Positions 2,861 to 9,297 of a stretch of DNA of 64,000 nt are shown in pieces. The position numbers were made by a program, and so were the translations under genes. Source of the stretch: Dialister hominis (GTDB taxonomy: Bacteria > Bacillota > Negativicutes > Veillonellales > Dialisteraceae); assembly GCF_007164725.1 (NCBI RefSeq), contig NZ_AP019697.1:425501-489500 (forward strand), read 5' to 3'. The notes beneath the pieces were generated by a model. It was not told the origin of the DNA. It worked only from the letters and a program-made list of their open reading frames with translations, and made no database searches. The number at the start of each line of letters is the position of its first letter. The first letter of the stretch is position 1.

Positions 2861-3904
2861 ATGGCTAAATTTCCAAGTTTAACATTTACCGAAGCAGGCA
2901 TGAAGATGCTGATTCAGTCCCAGAACGGGCACACACTCACTTTTACCAAAGGCAAGCTTGGCAGCGGCGTTCTGACAGACAGCGATGACATTACCAAATT
3001 TACCGACTTGAAGGCTCCCAAAATGGAGCTCCCGGTGGTAAAGAAAGATGATTCGGGTAAAGAAAAGATTTCCCTTACATTTAACACGTCAAACACGGCT
3101 CTTGAAGAAGGATTCGTCTCCAGAGAGCTGGGCGTGTTTGCAAAGCTGGACGACGGGGCCGAAACACTCTACGCATACAGTAACGCCGGAAACGATTATG
3201 ATTACATCCCAAACAAGGACACACCGACAGATGAAAACAGGTTGGTTGTGAACCTCATCGTAAGCTCTTCTGCAAATATTGCTGTGCTGGTGGATGGCTC
3301 CATCGTTTACGCTCACATGAGCGACCTTGACGATAGACTGCAAGTGACCGCTACGGTAGGGAAGCCGGCAAGTATGGACGAAAAAGGCCTTTGGGTGGAA
3401 ATCAAAGACGGGCTGAGATCTATTCTTCATCGGTGGAATAAGACAACGAATAGCTATGACACACTGCACCCTGAGACGGAATCTGCCCAGATTACCGACT
3501 GGCACTCTGGAATTATGGCAAGCCTCGCAAGCAAGACACTTGGGACCGTAGTGGATGCTATTACCACTGATTCAGTACTGGGAAAGCTTATAAAGCTGCT
3601 TTTAGATGCTAGCGGAGTAAAGTATTTAATTGATACAAATGGGTATGTATGCTTTGGCAGTCTGTTTGGCGGGCTAATTATACAGTGGGGATTCTACGTT
3701 TGTAATGCGAGTCAATCGTACCCGATAGCTTTTAGCATAAATCCATATTGTATTGCGGCGTCGGTGTTAGCTAGTACAACAGACTCAAATTATTACATCA
3801 TTTCGGTTGATAATGATAGTAATAGATCATTTATCTTGAATGGCTGGAGAGATAACGTTAAACAGGGCGACATTTATGCTGCTGTTATAGCAATCGGGAA
3901 ATAA
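2861..3904 (+). CDS. Phage tail fibre protein with exchangeable tip (expressed copy)
   Basis: A 347-residue tail fibre protein. Residues 1 to about 155 form the P2 gpH-like attachment domain (DUF3751), which fixes the fibre to the baseplate. A linker follows, and then the segment FGGLIIQWG, which in many phages introduces the gp53-like tip domain. The tip (residues about 275-347, ending WRDNVKQGDIYAAVIAIGK) contacts the host receptor. The codons for QWG at 3683-3691 lie inside the 9-bp core ACAGTGGGG that recurs in front of four further tip cassettes downstream. So the 3' 222 bases of this gene are probably just the currently selected one of five interchangeable ends. Confidence 0.85.
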   Translation: MAKFPSLTFTEAGMKMLIQSQNGHTLTFTKGKLGSGVLTDSDDITKFTDLKAPKMELPVVKKDDSGKEKISLTFNTSNTALEEGFVSRELGVFAKLDDGAETLYAYSNAGNDYDYIPNKDTPTDENRLVVNLIVSSSANIAVLVDGSIVYAHMSDLDDRLQVTATVGKPASMDEKGLWVEIKDGLRSILHRWNKTTNSYDTLHPETESAQITDWHSGIMASLASKTLGTVVDAITTDSVLGKLIKLLLDASGVKYLIDTNGYVCFGSLFGGLIIQWGFYVCNASQSYPIAFSINPYCIAASVLASTTDSNYYIISVDNDSNRSFILNGWRDNVKQGDIYAAVIAIGK

Positions 3905-3908
3905 TGGA

Positions 3909-4136
3909 CAGTGGGGAAATATCTACACGAGCAGTGATGGATTCGGAGCAGTTAATTTTCCTCTATCGTATACGCAAAATTGCTTTGGGATTTATGCCAT
4001 GGCACAAGACACTGCAGAAACGCATGAACATGTTTCGTACTATCAATTGGGAAAATCTAGTTGTATGTTTTATACAGAAACAAATCAAAGCGGTGGGAAA
4101 TCGCTGCATTGTTTATACTTTTCTGTCGGATATTAA
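3909..4136 (+). other. Silent tail-fibre tip cassette B
   Basis: Read from the CAG at 3909, the frame gives 75 residues beginning QWGNIYTSSDGFGAVNFPLS and ending with LHCLYFSVGY, then TAA at 4134-4136. It has no start codon or ribosome site of its own. An overlapping ATG frame from 3904 encodes an unrelated sequence and is a shadow. Length, the QWG entry, the 'FPLSYTQ...GIYAM' pattern and the final beta strand match the tip domain of the fibre gene upstream. It would become expressed if recombination at the 9-bp core joined it to the fibre stem in place of cassette A. Confidence 0.7.
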
Positions 4137-4150
4137 GCCCAGATGTTCAA

Positions 4151-4378
4151 CAGTGGGGACGTATAGTAAATTCTAATGGTAATACAAATACATATGTAAC
4201 ATTGCCAATCTCCGCAACACACGGCATAGGAGTTCTAAATGTATCTGATGCAGGAACTAGTGATGCCGTGTGGAATGGAGATTTAGTCTCCCAAAACATT
4301 ATATTGATAACGACATATCGTCCTAATGGCATTTCGACTAAAGGAGTAATGGCAAAATGGATTTTGGTTTATTTTTGA
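4151..4378 (+). other. Silent tail-fibre tip cassette C
   Basis: From the CAG at 4151 the frame encodes 75 residues: QWGRIVNSNGNTNTYVTLPI, then a variable central part, ending GVMAKWILVYF and TGA at 4376-4378. It is exactly the same length as cassette B and lacks its own translation start. An ATG-initiated reading from 4061 would enter it, but that start lies inside cassette B with no ribosome site. The 'VTLPISATHGIGVLNVSD' strand-turn-strand matches the gp53-like tip pattern (hydrophobic-Pro-hydrophobic). It lies tail to tail with cassette D, 18 bp apart. Confidence 0.7.
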
Positions 4379-4396
4379 GTAGACAACGTTAAATGG

Positions 4397-4609
4397 CTAT
4401 TTCCCTATAGCAATCCAATAACTGCCCTTCGACTCTGTAGGCTGGCCATCGCTAATTATTTGGATTTGATTCTGAGATAGCACTTTTACTACTCTGATAG
4501 ACCCAGAATTTGAAACTTCGCCATTTGCAGTGGCGACTAACGTATATCCGTTATTATTAAAAGCAATAGGTAAAGCAGTTAGCATACCATTGGATAAAAA
4601 TCCCCACTG
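4397..4609 (-). other. Silent tail-fibre tip cassette D (inverted)
   Basis: On the minus strand, from CAG at 4609, the frame reads QWGFLSNGMLTALPIAFNNN and continues for 70 residues to ESKGSYWIAIGK and a stop at 4397. Its end (IAIGK) is the same as that of the tip now attached to the fibre gene, and 'PIAF' is shared too, so the two are clearly homologous. An internal ATG at 4585 exists but leaves out the conserved QWG entry. Because it faces the opposite way, it needs an inversion between its core (4602-4610) and the fibre core (3682-3690) to be expressed. Confidence 0.72.
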
Positions 4610-4610
4610 T

Positions 4611-4853
4611 TTAGTTACTGCCGATGATAAGGCATATACCAGTCACGTTATTGGTTTGAGCCTTAACCCCTATACGTAAAGAGCAGGTGGTCGCCGTAAA
4701 GTTTGTACAAGCGCAACTTGCTGGATTGGATACTGGTCCTCCTTGATGGAGGACTGTAACAGCAAGTGCATGTGCCATTTGTACTGGATAAGTTATTGTG
4801 GCATCAAAAATTTGTTCGCCGTTTAAGTGAAACGTATCTGTTGTTACCCACTG
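4611..4853 (-). other. Silent tail-fibre tip cassette E (inverted)
   Basis: On the minus strand from CAG at 4853 the frame reads QWVTTDTFHLNGEQIFDATI and continues for 80 residues to VTGICLIIGSN, stop at 4611. It is the most divergent cassette: its core ends in T rather than G, giving Val instead of Gly after QW, and it contains a cysteine-rich loop (SCACTNFTATTC). The pattern 'TYPVQMAHALAVTV' still fits the tip fold. An upstream ATG at 4907 opens the frame through a hydrophobic leader-like stretch, but no ribosome site is apparent. The D core begins directly after this cassette's stop. Confidence 0.62.
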
Positions 4854-5089
4854 TAGAGGGATTGTTACGAAACAGGAGAAGTAGGTTAGAGTAAGCAGAG
4901 TATGCATGATTTTTTAAAAATAAAATCAATGAAAAACCCGCCAGAACATCAGATATCTACAATCGTAGAAGTGTAAATATATGCTAATCTGGCTGTTTTA
5001 TCCAGTATCAATAGTAACAACCATCAAGCCACGGATAATGCAGATAATACGGTAATGCGTGCGATTGATTGAGTAGCGTACTAGTAACA

Positions 5090-6115
5090 CTACTTTAGCA
5101 GCTCTATGCATTTTCGTAGCTGTCGCAAGCCCTTGTGTGTGTAAACCCTTTCAGTCACATCTCCTCCGGCATGACCTAATACACGCCGTTTTGCTGTTTC
5201 ATTGGCTCCTGCATTGTCCAGCAGTGTTGCTACAGTATGGCGGCAGTCGTGGGTTGTATGACCATCAGCTTTGATGGAGTGCATGACATCACGCCAAAGC
5301 TGGCAATAGCGACTGTAGTCATATTGCTTTCCTTTGGAATCCGCTATCAGATGCACACCGATTGATTTCATACGGTTTGTAATGAGAGGGAAAATCCGAT
5401 GATGGATGGGGATGGTTCTGATGCCGGAAACGGTCTTGCTTTTTGTAATACGCATGTATCCCTGCCGGAGGTTCACATCATTCTTCTGGAGTGCCAGCAT
5501 CTCGCCAACACGCATACCGGTGTAAAGCAGAATGAGCACCGTATCAACACCGGGCTCATCGCAGTGTGCCCAAAGCCGATTAATTTTCTGCCGACTGAAT
5601 GGATGGTGTGGATGTACAGCCTTATTCTTGCCGATTGATAGCAGGGGAGCGTAGCATTTATTTATCAACTCAATTTTCACAGCATATTTTTCAAGTAACG
5701 AAATCAAAGAGCGGACTTTCTTCAGAGAACTGTAAGACAGCCCGCTCTTTCGCATGGAATCAAGAATTTTCTGGTAGTCTGCATATTTTAGACTTTGGAA
5801 TGGCTCATAGTGAAGAGGAACCAAGTGCTTGAATGAATTGGTGTAGCTGTCAAGTGTTGACTGCGATGGTGCGGTGTTGACCGTATGAGCAGGAAGCCAA
5901 CGGTAATAGAGCTCAGCAAGCGTTATCTGATGACCTGGAAGGGAGCGATGGAAATGAAATTTATTGTAGTCAGCTTGAAAGATTTCAGCTTCAACCTGCG
6001 TGGAAAAGTACTCGACAGGCTTTTGCTTCCCATGAACGCTGATAACAAATACAAATGGCCTCCTCCGATTGCCGGAGAGCTTTTTGATTGAACCATATCC
6101 ATTTGGTTTACGCAT
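5090..6115 (-). CDS. Tyrosine recombinase next to the tail-tip array (candidate tip invertase)
   Basis: A 341-residue phage-integrase-type tyrosine recombinase. An N-terminal AP2-like arm-binding segment (YGSIKKLSGNRRRPFVF), a SAM-like core-binding domain (about 65-160) and a catalytic domain are all present. The catalytic residues are visible: Arg in TGMRVGE, His289/Arg292 in HDCRHT, His315 in LGHAG and the nucleophile Tyr325 in VYTHKG. It is encoded against the late operon between the fibre tips and the lysis genes, whereas the phage's own integrase would be expected at the attachment site, where a broken one lies (8658-8876). That position makes a role in rearranging the tip cassettes likely. 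Alternatively it is the integrase of a nested element. Confidence 0.85.
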   Translation of the reverse strand: MRKPNGYGSIKKLSGNRRRPFVFVISVHGKQKPVEYFSTQVEAEIFQADYNKFHFHRSLPGHQITLAELYYRWLPAHTVNTAPSQSTLDSYTNSFKHLVPLHYEPFQSLKYADYQKILDSMRKSGLSYSSLKKVRSLISLLEKYAVKIELINKCYAPLLSIGKNKAVHPHHPFSRQKINRLWAHCDEPGVDTVLILLYTGMRVGEMLALQKNDVNLRQGYMRITKSKTVSGIRTIPIHHRIFPLITNRMKSIGVHLIADSKGKQYDYSRYCQLWRDVMHSIKADGHTTHDCRHTVATLLDNAGANETAKRRVLGHAGGDVTERVYTHKGLRQLRKCIELLK

Positions 6116-6154
6116 TTTAAAATCACCTCATTTTTATTGTTAAGGAGATAACTT

Positions 6155-6601
6155 ATGAACGCAACAAATGTTGATTATTACATCGTCGGCTTTAAGTCGG
6201 ACGGTAGCCGTGCCGCCGGTAAAATTTGTATGTTTGATCCAATTAAACATCCGGATAAGCTGGAAGCCGAAGCAGAAAAGATGAAAGCGGATAATGCCGA
6301 TATTGTGACAGTAAAAGCCGTCACAACCGAAGATTACATGAACCTGCTTGGAAATAATACTAATGGGAAAGAGTACATCCTGAGCGGTGAAACCTTCGTG
6401 CCTAAGCCAGATTATGTACCCACCGAAGCCGAGGAAAAGCAGGCCGCCATCGCTACTATAAAAGCAAAGTATCATCCAACACTGGATAGTTTGGTAGAAG
6501 CTAGGGTAAAAGCGGCCATGCTGGGCGCCGACACCACTAAGATTGACAGCCAGTACAAAACTACCCTTGCCAACATGGCAACGGAAATCAAGAACGCATA
6601 G
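6155..6601 (+). CDS. Phage protein of unknown function (tail-fibre-associated position)
   Basis: A 148-residue soluble protein with a strong ribosome site (AAGGAG, 7 nt before ATG 6155). The N-terminus VDYYIVGFKSDGSRAAGKI is a short beta segment. The middle is acidic, and the C-terminal 60 residues (EAEEKQAAIATIKAKYHPTLDSLVEARVKAAMLG) are predicted helical. This arrangement resembles small XkdW- or tail-fibre-assembly-like proteins encoded after fibres, but I recognise no domain firmly. It starts the rightward operon that continues into the holin, divergent from the recombinase, whose start is 39 bp away, so the short gap may carry both promoters. Confidence 0.7.
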   Translation: MNATNVDYYIVGFKSDGSRAAGKICMFDPIKHPDKLEAEAEKMKADNADIVTVKAVTTEDYMNLLGNNTNGKEYILSGETFVPKPDYVPTEAEEKQAAIATIKAKYHPTLDSLVEARVKAAMLGADTTKIDSQYKTTLANMATEIKNA

Positions 6602-6615
6602 AGGAGGGATAAATC

Positions 6616-6762
6616 ATGGAATTTTGCGAATATTGCGGTAACCTTTTAAATGAAGACGGGCGCTGCCCATGGGATGGATGCCCGCACAATGCTATTTTGG
6701 ACGCCATGGCAGAAGCCAAAGCAGCCGATGAGAAGAAAGATAAGAGTGAGGACAAAACCTGA
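6616..6762 (+). CDS. 48-residue putative zinc-finger micro-protein of the phage
   Basis: A short frame with a good ribosome site (GAGGAGGG, 6 nt before ATG 6616) encodes MEFCEYCGNLLNEDGRCPWD followed by GCPHNAILDAMAEAKAADEKKDKSEDKT. Four cysteines in CxxC and CPWDGC form a plausible zinc knuckle, followed by a charged helical tail. Its stop overlaps the holin start (TGATG), so the two are translationally coupled. Small proteins of this kind occur before holins in phages of this group, but I cannot assign a function. Confidence 0.65.
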   Translation: MEFCEYCGNLLNEDGRCPWDGCPHNAILDAMAEAKAADEKKDKSEDKT

Positions 6763-7262
6763 TGGAATTCATGGGGCAGATTTACTGGTACGCTTACAAA
6801 TCAATTTGCAACATTACAACAGGATGGCCATTCAAACTGGCTGGCGGAGCAGTGCTACTAGTCGTTGCACGGCATGCCGCCTTATTTACGGCTTTTTCAC
6901 TGCTCGTTGTACTTGATTTATTCGCTAAATTCATTGCGTTGTCTTACGAGATGATAAAAACTCAGGGCACTGAAAGCCCATCGCTGCTGGAATCAATCAA
7001 AGCGATCCCAGAAGCACATCGGCAGCGGATTATCAACTCGCATGAGATGAAGACGCAGTTTTCCGGGAAAGTTATTGTCTACATCATTGCTGTTATGGCA
7101 GCTGGAATTGTAGATTTTATAGTTGGCCATGCAAACTTTAGTCAGATAGTCATCGCTTACCTGGCATCGACGGAGCTTCTGAGCATTATCGAAAATCTTG
7201 ACGATGCAGGTGTATCCGCCGTGCATGATTTAGTCGGGTTAATCAAAAGAAAGAGGGCGTAA
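6762..7262 (+). CDS. Phage holin (toxin secretion/phage lysis holin type)
   Basis: A 166-residue membrane protein with hydrophobic segments at about residues 24-50 (LAGGAVLLVVARHAALFTAF and onward), 105-122 (VIVYIIAVMAAGIVDFIV) and 125-145. The SLLESIKAIPEAHR loop and the final basic tail (LIKRKRA) also fit the phage_holin_4 family seen before endolysins in Firmicute prophages. Holins open the inner membrane at a set time to release the endolysin. It overlaps the upstream micro-protein by 1 nt and is followed after 2 nt by the GH25 lysozyme, giving a standard lysis cassette. Confidence 0.8.
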   Translation: MEFMGQIYWYAYKSICNITTGWPFKLAGGAVLLVVARHAALFTAFSLLVVLDLFAKFIALSYEMIKTQGTESPSLLESIKAIPEAHRQRIINSHEMKTQFSGKVIVYIIAVMAAGIVDFIVGHANFSQIVIAYLASTELLSIIENLDDAGVSAVHDLVGLIKRKRA

Positions 7263-7264
7263 AG

Positions 7265-7843
7265 ATGAATGTTATCGATTTATCAGACTGGAATGAAAAT
7301 GTCGACTGGTCCCGTTTCATTGACCACGGCATTGGCGGTGTAATCGTGAAAATTTCAGAGGGCCGCACTCTTAGCGAACTGTTTGCAAAGAATATTGCGG
7401 GAGCCGCTGCTCGTGGGCTCCCGTGGGGCGTCTATTGTTTCTCTCATGCACAAACGACAGAACGGGCGAAAGAAGAAGCCCAGACAGTAATCGACGCATT
7501 GGATACTTTAGGATATGGAACACCGGACTTAGGAATCTGGCTCGACATCGAGGCTCCAGAAGTAGTAGGGCAGAATGCTGATGACGTGACCGCAATTTGC
7601 AGCGCATTCATATCCGCTTGCAATGCCGCCGGCTATAGCGCCGGGATCTATGCGAGCCTCTCAACATTGACAGACTGCATCAACGTTAATGATCTGGCAG
7701 ACTATGTGCCGTACTGGTGCGCTCAGTATGCCGAAAAATGCGACTTCCTGGATTATTACCCTGACAATAGACTTACAGGGTGGCAGTGCACAGACAGCTA
7801 CATTATAGACGGGAACACTTATGATCTGTCAGTTTGGTACTAG
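7265..7843 (+). CDS. Phage endolysin, GH25 lysozyme
   Basis: A 192-residue glycoside hydrolase family 25 muramidase without a separate wall-binding domain. The family marks are clear: the N-terminal DLSDWNENVDW strand with the first catalytic-region aspartate, VIVKISEG, WGVYCFSHA, the catalytic pair in GIWLDIEAP, and AGYSAGIYAS with the C-terminal YDLSVW. It cleaves the beta-1,4 bond between MurNAc and GlcNAc. There is no signal peptide, so release depends on the holin just upstream. The stop at 7843 is followed directly by GGGGAGG, the ribosome site for the next two overlapping frames. Confidence 0.92.
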   Translation: MNVIDLSDWNENVDWSRFIDHGIGGVIVKISEGRTLSELFAKNIAGAAARGLPWGVYCFSHAQTTERAKEEAQTVIDALDTLGYGTPDLGIWLDIEAPEVVGQNADDVTAICSAFISACNAAGYSAGIYASLSTLTDCINVNDLADYVPYWCAQYAEKCDFLDYYPDNRLTGWQCTDSYIIDGNTYDLSVWY

Positions 7844-7856
7844 GGGAGGCTTGGAA

Positions 7857-8255
7857 TTGTGGAAAATAAAAAACAGAAGCTGTGTGCTGCTACTCTTGCT
7901 TGCGTTGTGCTTCTTGCCGGCCTTGTGTGGTTCCTCTGTGCAGGCAGAAGCGATGTATCAGATATCAGAAGGGGAGCTCAATCAGTTACAGAGCAACTTG
8001 ACCGAGCTGAAAGCGGACAACGAGAACAAGCAGGATCTCTTGACAGAGCAGCAGAAGCAGCTTCAGATAGTCAACGAGCAGCTGGAGAAATCCAGAGCAT
8101 TGAACGAAGAGACGCAGACCTCATTAGCGGAAGCCAATCGATCATTGACAGAGTTAGAGAAAGAGGCACAGCACAAGATACAGGTGAAGACTAGACAGAG
8201 GAACCTGTGGATTTCTATTGCCGCCATCTGTGCTGTTGCGGCCATTGCTAAATAA
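7857..8255 (+). CDS. Spanin-like lysis protein, frame 1 (signal segment, coiled coil, C-terminal membrane segment)
   Basis: Starting at TTG 7857, this frame gives about 132 residues. It has a basic N-terminus and hydrophobic stretch (CVLLLLLALCFLPALCGSSV, followed by a signal-peptidase-like VQA-EA), a long heptad-rich coiled coil (about 35-105, QLQSNLTELKADNENKQDLL and on), then a C-terminal membrane segment (LWISIAAICAVAAIAK). It ends just before the lysis-operon terminator. A second coding frame begins 2 nt later on the same strand and runs inside it. Position after the endolysin and a periplasmic coiled coil suggest a spanin that bridges to the outer membrane. The start is uncertain: TTG 7851 or a longer form from 7821 are also open. 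Confidence 0.6.
   Translation: MWKIKNRSCVLLLLLALCFLPALCGSSVQAEAMYQISEGELNQLQSNLTELKADNENKQDLLTEQQKQLQIVNEQLEKSRALNEETQTSLAEANRSLTELEKEAQHKIQVKTRQRNLWISIAAICAVAAIAK
7859..8194 (+). CDS. Spanin-like lysis protein, frame 2 (embedded, N-terminal membrane anchor)
   Basis: GTG 7859 opens a 111-residue frame wholly inside the previous one, in another register. It encodes a single N-terminal membrane segment (LCAATLACVVLLAGLVWFLC) and then a long polar helical region (SVTEQLDRAESGQREQAGSL and on) with the LDRA.../SQR... repeats typical of Rz-like inner-membrane spanin subunits from this group of prophages. GGGGAGG lies 9 nt upstream of the GTG. Both frames share one ribosome site and start 2 nt apart. 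The paired, overlapping arrangement is like Rz/Rz1, although here both proteins carry hydrophobic ends. Which frame is translated more cannot be told from sequence. Confidence 0.6.
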   Translation: MENKKQKLCAATLACVVLLAGLVWFLCAGRSDVSDIRRGAQSVTEQLDRAESGQREQAGSLDRAAEAASDSQRAAGEIQSIERRDADLISGSQSIIDRVRERGTAQDTGED

Positions 8256-8263
8256 AGGCAGAA

Positions 8264-8298
8264 GAAGAGCGGATGCAGAGATGCATCCGCTCTTTTTT
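8264..8298 (+). terminator. Terminator of the phage lysis operon
   Basis: AAGAGCGGATGCA, loop GAGA, then TGCATCCGCTCTT followed by a T run. The stem is perfect over 13 pairs and starts 9 nt after the last lysis gene. Confidence 0.9.
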
Positions 8299-8657
8299 AA
8301 TGCTTCTAATCGAAATGATAAAATCAATATGTAACAGGCTATCAAAAAATCCTGTATTTATCGAATAATTGTGAAAACTGGCCTTACTATTTATATAGTT
8401 GGGGCTGATCGGGGTATGTATCTACCTGCATTGGGCCCATCGAAAACTAATGCCTCACCGCCTCCGATAAATGATAGGGTAAAAGTCGGCAACTCCTCAA
8501 CGGTCAAAAGTCAAGAGGGGTATGGTGGCAAAAGGTGGCAGAAGAATACAAATTTTGTACTCTCCATGTCCCATGTCACTCACAAGTCAAGCACATGAGG
8601 ATTCCCATGGCCTCTGCGTTATCCCGCTTTCAGTTCCAACGGTTAAGCACAGGTTAC
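8299..8657. other. Non-coding stretch at the prophage right end
   Basis: Between the lysis terminator and the broken integrase I see no gene with a ribosome site. Plus-strand frames at 8371-8598 and 8535-8777 lack one and overlap the minus-strand integrase remnant. The attachment site is expected hereabouts or beyond 8880, but the left end of the prophage is outside the window, so the repeat cannot be identified. Confidence 0.5.
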
Positions 8658-8876
8658 TCACACTTTATTGATGGCTTTCCTCAAATCCGCCAAGGTTTTA
8701 TGTGTGTAAACGCCTTTCGTCACTCCCGTGCGGGCGTGTCCGAGTATCATCTTGACGGCCGTTTCATTGGCCCCTGATCTGTCGAGCATGGTGGCCAGCG
8801 TGTGGCGGCACTCATGGGGCGTGTGGTGCATGTTCAGCTCTTTTATGGCGTGGTCAAAGAGGCGGCTCTTTTCTTT
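8658..8876 (-). pseudogene. Integrase remnant (C-terminal catalytic fragment)
   Basis: The minus-strand frame from 8876 to the stop at 8658 gives 72 residues ending in a tyrosine-recombinase active site: HECRHTLATMLDRSGANETA, then ILGHARTGVTKGVYTHKTL. The catalytic Arg/His, the LGHA histidine and the tyrosine are all intact. Upstream the frame is closed by TAA at 8877-8879, and no N-terminal or core-binding domain precedes it. It is clearly related to the recombinase at 5090-6115 over this region. It is probably what is left of the integrase that placed a prophage here, or an older one; alone it cannot work. Confidence 0.8.
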
Positions 8877-8879
8877 TTA

Positions 8880-9297
8880 CGGCAAAAAAACGGCAAAAAT
8901 CTTATGATATTTTATAGTTTTTAATGGTAAATACGAAATGGCTGCAACCGCTGATTTTATCGGTAAATACTATTTTTATTGTAATTTGTGACGGTACACG
9001 GCATGCATAAAATAAGTTATACACTAATTGGACAGATTGTGGAATGAAAAAGGACGATATGATATAGGTTTCTTTTGTATTTTCAAAATAGAGGCCTTTT
9101 TAAGCAAAAATGAAACCGAATTTGATTAGTTGTATGATTCTTATTGTCAACTGTGTAAAAACGCGTTTAAATGGCTTTATAACGCATTTTATGGTATAAT
9201 ATAAACGTAAATCGTTTAATTTTTTTGAGGGCGCGGACTTTCCGCGTTCTTTTCATGGCATCTTTTTCAGATGCCGGAGCAAGGCAAAGGAGTTTTT
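8880..9297. promoter_or_regulatory. AT-rich gyrA upstream region with extended -10 promoter and leader hairpin
   Basis: This stretch has no gene. An extended -10 element TGGTATAAT lies at 9192-9200, with no good -35 at 17 bp, so initiation probably relies on the TG motif. A GC-rich hairpin, GCGCGGA-CTT-TCCGCGT followed by TCTTTT (9230-9253), sits in the leader before gyrA and may act as an attenuator or simply as a 5' stabiliser. The prophage junction is probably in the AT-rich part between 8880 and 9120. Confidence 0.5.

Follow-up and report, generated by a model that had tools for sequence, protein, structure and literature searches.

Two overlapping reading frames close a prophage lysis operon in Dialister hominis and may encode a lipoprotein-free, spanin-like module of Negativicutes phages

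The dual-frame locus

Can a single stretch of prophage DNA encode two lysis proteins at once, and if so, what kind of proteins are they? The question arises in a 64,000-nucleotide stretch of the Dialister hominis genome (positions 425,501 to 489,500 of contig NZ_AP019697.1; hereafter the window), where two open frames, here called A and B, begin 2 nt apart behind genes for a holin and an endolysin. The features of the locus, in coordinates of the window, are as follows.

6762..7262, + strand: holin, Phage_holin_4_1 family (Pfam PF05105, 2.2e-7, above cut-off; PHROG holin, 1.4e-5)
7265..7843, + strand: endolysin, GH25 muramidase (Pfam PF01183, 3.9e-28)
about 7843..7849, + strand: Shine-Dalgarno GGGGAGG common to the starts of A and B, ~7 nt from TTG and ~9 nt from GTG (sequence, start analysis)
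7857..8255, + strand: frame A, 132 aa, TTG at 7857, stop at 8253-8255 (translation, HMM family, purifying selection, AlphaFold)
7859..8194, + strand: frame B, 111 aa, i-spanin-like, GTG at 7859, stop at 8192-8194 (translation, HMM family, purifying selection, AlphaFold)
8195..8255, + strand: unshared 3' part of A, coding most of its basic/hydrophobic C-terminal tail (stop positions)
8261..8298, + strand: intrinsic terminator directly 3' of frame A, with a 17-bp stem, GAGA loop and U-rich 3' arm (folding, -27.9 kcal/mol, z = -8.9)

The A/B pair is the last gene of the holin–GH25 endolysin operon. A strong terminator lies only a few bases after the A stop, and the pair thus closes the late operon. 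This hairpin was not detected by a terminator scan, because its stem consumes the T-run, and was revealed by folding. A hairpin with a T-run followed A at 70 of 107 loci.

Evidence that both frames are coding

Both frames were open as they had been read from the sequence alone, giving proteins of 132 aa from TTG 7857 and 111 aa from GTG 7859. One frame alone might be coding, with the other open through composition, and coiled-coil codon usage does slightly lower stop frequency in the other frame. The effect was gauged by shuffling the synonymous codons of A while keeping its protein and codon usage. For the window alone, an open +2 frame of 111 codons persisted in 20 of 50,000 shuffles; among 610 windows taken from plain genes nearby, 2 had such long +2-open stretches. 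The +2 frame was open for 95-143 codons at each of 108 homologous loci, and B stayed open in 137 of 4,320 shuffles (3.2%). A profile of B scored the real sequence above all 40 shuffles at 107 of the 108 loci, and at 95 of the 96 that lay outside its training set. In the converse test, in which the B protein was kept, its codons shuffled, and A scored, 106 of 108 loci beat their shuffles. Run both ways, the codon-shuffle tests establish that the openness of the second frame does not simply follow from the first.

An analysis of substitutions in relatives, which the sequence-only reading had proposed, revealed purifying selection in A and in B. Changes in 24 independent close pairs (71-97% DNA identity) were sorted by their effect in each frame. 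For A, dNN/dSN was 0.48 (95% CI 0.40-0.57) and dNS/dSS was 0.20 (0.16-0.27); for B, dNN/dNS was 0.76 (0.59-0.91) and dSN/dSS was 0.31 (0.23-0.43). Per site, doubly silent changes were ~3 times as frequent as those silent in A only and ~5 times as frequent as those silent in B only, the doubly silent class comprising few sites (47), such that ratios built on it are rough. Sorted by A codon position, substitutions numbered 294/353/496 in the overlap versus 81/62/180 in the unshared tail; the flatter pattern in the overlap is the expectation for dual coding.

The start codons point the same way. Both frames had been thought to draw on a single ribosome site and to start almost on the same base; GGGGAGG indeed stands ahead of both TTG 7857 and GTG 7859, and the near-coincidence proved to be conserved. 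Near-coincident pairs (A−B = −2 or +4 nt) with both frames open were found at 64 of 108 loci, versus 2 of 434 internal control windows, and 62 of those 64 pairs had a Shine-Dalgarno match. The pairs were of two types, ATGNATG, in which A follows B by 4 nt, and ATGTGG, in which B follows A by 2 nt. At other loci the B start, as assigned by a heuristic picker, was some 7-40 nt upstream, in some cases with a second Shine-Dalgarno. Whatever the start spacing, A was always in the +1 frame of B. We conclude that the A/B DNA is almost certainly dual coding. That only one frame codes, a reading contradicted by the two-way shuffles, the substitution test, and the conserved co-start, is extremely improbable. 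Each frame has its own start, so no programmed frameshift is needed.

The geometry at the 3' end was also regular. The A stop fell 52-82 nt past the B stop in most of the 108 loci (mode 64 nt; 61 nt in the window), and B therefore ends about where the tail of A begins. A consequence of this layout is that in-frame insertions or deletions in the common DNA lengthen or shorten the A and B rods equally.

Distribution among Negativicutes

Profiles built from 13 A proteins and 13 B proteins were searched independently. The A profile matched 144 of 380 Negativicutes genomes, in 62 of 102 genera, and the B profile matched 126 of the 380, in 57 genera and largely at the same places; the weakest matches of both include coiled-coil noise, such that both genus tallies are best taken as approximate upper limits. 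The arrangement thus appears to be present in about 60 of the 102 genera sampled, far more widespread than could be seen from the window alone. Among the loci fetched, which were the better full-length ones, A alone had picked 111 distinct loci; at 110 of these the B profile matched the +2 frame, and the +1 frame carried 2-22 stops. At the single exception (L138) a B-like frame was open as well. When loci selected by B with a weak A match were inspected by hand, most had an uninterrupted A with signal, coil, and tail. One of the B-selected loci (L201) was discarded as an unrelated repeat protein.

Homologues in which one frame is routinely interrupted while the other is kept, the case that would count against the sequence-only reading, were sought without success. 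A was broken at three of ~118 loci (L199, L204, and L205), by one stop each with B intact, and no B with an interruption was encountered. The single A stops at L199, L204, and L205 could reflect a decaying prophage, a sequencing error, or a genuine loss.

All 16 relatives (contigs) from IMG/VR carried both frames, and the named host records, Acidaminococcus and its relatives, belong to Negativicutes. The 249 genomes sampled from the rest of the phylum gave weak matches only, mostly in much longer or repetitive ORFs; judged by listed ORF length, these were rejected as coiled-coil chance matches. A tblastn search with four queries against 50,697 phage records returned no match. NCBIfam and Pfam matches (SMC, ETRAMP and similar) were below curated cut-offs and were set aside as coiled-coil noise.

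Predicted proteins and comparison with known spanins

Protein B is predicted to comprise an N-terminal membrane anchor (N-in), a helical periplasmic domain, and a C-terminal VRERG motif (V-R-x-R-G in the family). Mean net charge over 108 loci was +1.2 before the anchor and -0.5 after it, a positive-inside bias. AlphaFold modeled a helix over residues 2-107 at low confidence (mean pLDDT 65.8), and at least one Cys occurred after residue ~30 at 55 of 108 loci. The topology first read for B, an N-terminal anchor and an Rz-like helical domain, fits these data; with its N-in anchor and predicted periplasmic helical domain, B looks like an i-spanin.

The topology first read for A (signal, coiled coil, C-terminal membrane segment) likewise fits the predictions, the C-terminal hydrophobic segment being short, at 11-16 residues in most members. 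In the window, A has an SPase-I-type signal, a YQISEGEL motif, a long helix, a basic TRQRN, and, at the C-terminus, a short hydrophobic tail with K as its last residue. An AxA-type signal was present at 104 of 108 loci; a strict lipobox was present at only 4 of 108 and is not conserved. The N-terminal motif of mature A, around Y-x-I-T-E-x-E-L, was the best conserved part of the protein. At the other end, a basic R-x-x-R-N-like stretch precedes the hydrophobic tail, which often ends in K. AlphaFold modeled A as one helix (residues 38-131, mean pLDDT 82.9), and 57 of 61 members scored had no periplasmic Cys.

A plain identification of the pair as Rz/Rz1 is not supported, although several features are shared. 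Two-component spanins are joined by intermolecular disulfides between periplasmic cysteines and fuse the inner with the outer membrane; their mutants arrest as spherical cells. In the 2018 survey of spanins a lipoprotein is a requirement, and Rz1 lies in the +1 frame of Rz (PMC6139136). As in the embedded Rz/Rz1 of lambda (PMC6139136), the pair lies at the end of a lysis cassette with holin and endolysin in a diderm host, B resembles an i-spanin with N-terminal anchor and periplasmic helix, and the partner is in the +1 frame of the i-spanin gene (A at B -2 or +4). The starts, however, are 2-4 nt apart at one ribosome site, whereas in Rz/Rz1 one gene lies deep inside the other. Unlike Rz1, a short, proline-rich lipoprotein, A is longer than the i-spanin, helical, and devoid of a lipobox or proline-rich region, has a hydrophobic tail at its end, and lacks periplasmic cysteine in all but four of the members scored. 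Matches to the PHROG 'Rz-like spanin' were weak and of the coiled-coil kind, a feature that yields chance matches to many families. A canonical lipoprotein o-spanin elsewhere in the cassette was also sought: no ORF with a lipobox was found in window positions 3900-8700, and few were found at other loci.

Two further architectures were compared. In P2-type overlapped spanins, as here, the partner gene runs past the stop of the i-spanin gene (PMC6139136); the A/B overlap, in contrast, takes in essentially all of B, and A is not a lipoprotein. The T1 u-spanin, gp11, resembles A in carrying an export signal at its N-terminus and a hydrophobic segment at its C-terminus (PMC6139136), but A has neither the lipobox that accompanies the C-terminal transmembrane domain of u-spanins nor the mainly beta periplasmic domain of the T1 prototype, being predicted to form a single helix with a short tail, and a second protein is coded on its DNA. 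With its cleavable signal, ~94-residue helix, and short C-terminal hydrophobic tail, A is unlike any known o-spanin. As A/B fails the lipoprotein test for both two-component spanins and u-spanins, we do not file it as a member of either, though most likely it works as spanins do.

Proposed function and alternatives

Judged by position and topology, A and B probably form a two-protein, spanin-like outer-membrane lysis module of new architecture. The upstream hydrolases, a B topology like that of i-spanins, and confinement to a diderm class all favor a role in outer-membrane lysis. Of 99 upstream ORFs, about 70 matched a peptidoglycan hydrolase family (Amidase_3, 29; GH25, 16; Amidase_2, 16; others), and Phage_holin_4_1 was next upstream at 27 of 89 loci. 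The original argument from lysis context and a diderm host thus holds, with a holin and GH25 in the window, hydrolase neighbors elsewhere, and a family confined to a diderm class. Some ORFs upstream of the dual gene had no recognized hydrolase match, which leaves room for A and B to be a structural, exclusion, or other envelope pair adjoining the endolysin by chance. We consider this quite improbable, given that the dual gene comes last after a hydrolase, often with a holin next upstream, across many families and in diderm hosts only.

The proposed sequence of events is as follows. One ribosome site would feed both proteins, the A start lying 2 nt before that of B here and 4 nt after it in most relatives. 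B would act as the i-spanin, signal-anchored in the inner membrane with its helical domain in the periplasm. A would be exported by its cleavable signal and would form a single long helix, terminated by a basic patch and a short hydrophobic tail. This tail would enter the outer membrane, opposite the inner one held by B, and the two helices would pair, both running N to C outwards. Once the GH25 endolysin had removed the peptidoglycan, the A/B complex could collapse, fusing or tearing the outer membrane.

Several observations weigh against parts of this scheme. No lipoprotein is found in the module, and the canonical outer-membrane anchor is thus missing. The tail of A, 11-16 residues in most members, is short for a spanning helix. 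A also carries a stop at three loci where B is kept. Entry of the A tail into the outer membrane, favored because bridging needs it, is tentatively proposed, at somewhat less than an even chance.

The main rival to that placement has both proteins in the inner membrane, the tail of A serving as a stop-transfer segment and B held by its N-terminal anchor. Through the Y-x-I-T-E-x-E-L motif of A, the pair would then push on, or attach to, a partner in the outer membrane or cell wall, and the outer membrane would break without direct bridging. The basic stretch before the tail with a single K after it, and the strong conservation of the N-terminal motif, suit this arrangement. Negativicutes tether their outer membrane by SLH proteins, and a partner could thus exist. 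The partner is hypothetical, however, and the tail is shorter than typical inner-membrane helices; we judge this alternative rather unlikely, if a serious one.

It is also conceivable that A alone acts in the manner of a u-spanin and that B is an overprinted accessory that, for example, regulates A or the timing of the holin. Constraint on A is stronger (0.48 versus 0.76), A has hydrophobic segments at both ends as in u-spanins, and it was modeled with higher confidence. B is clearly constrained too (dSN/dSS 0.31), however, and is present at virtually every locus, including the three with a stop in A, while A is without the lipobox that defines u-spanins. An accessory B therefore seems unlikely.

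In its fullest form, the two-protein module would serve Negativicutes phages across the class as an outer-membrane lysis system without a lipoprotein. Two helical rods lying parallel, encoded in two frames behind one ribosome site, would bridge the envelope, and overprinting would tie their expression ratio and lengths together. This complete picture may be correct, but we hold it with a little less than even confidence.

There appears to be no description of how phages of diderm Firmicutes breach the outer membrane: a literature search for a Negativicutes spanin found none, and a 2025 survey of lytic proteins makes no mention of Negativicutes (PMC12596118). The A/B pair is a candidate open to testing, present in about 60 of the 102 genera sampled and missed by Pfam, NCBIfam, and tblastn of known phages. 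As same-strand genes that overlap fully behind a common ribosome site, A and B are also unusually long and deeply conserved; gene callers limited to one gene per stretch would halve the pair.

Second prophage and neighboring elements

A second prophage in the same genome (G000:C1:937500-942500; L206) has an identical 341-aa integrase and the same neighboring genes: a near-identical tail-fibre-assembly gene, a holin, and a GH25 endolysin, then a divergent dual-frame gene. A and B are both retained there, A starting 7 nt downstream of B. Identity to the window was 27% for A and 24% for B over short alignments, values not significant on their own. This prophage repeats the whole cassette design with very divergent A and B.

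In the window the integrase gene (5090-6115, − strand) lies within the late operon, between the tail and lysis genes and on the opposite strand, and likewise in the second prophage. Between the dual gene and a gyrA-like gene at 9271, a short ORF (8658-8831, − strand) resembles the C-terminus of a tyrosine integrase and is possibly the remnant of another prophage.

Some genomes gave short matches to A alone, and these proved to be 3' remnants of the dual gene. Such remnants were seen at L187, L188, L189, L190, L191, L192, L193, L194, and L196, most with both frames recognizable, and are possibly recombination or attachment-site duplications. At L187 and L188, a complete copy of the dual gene lies 1.8-3.3 kb away from the remnant.
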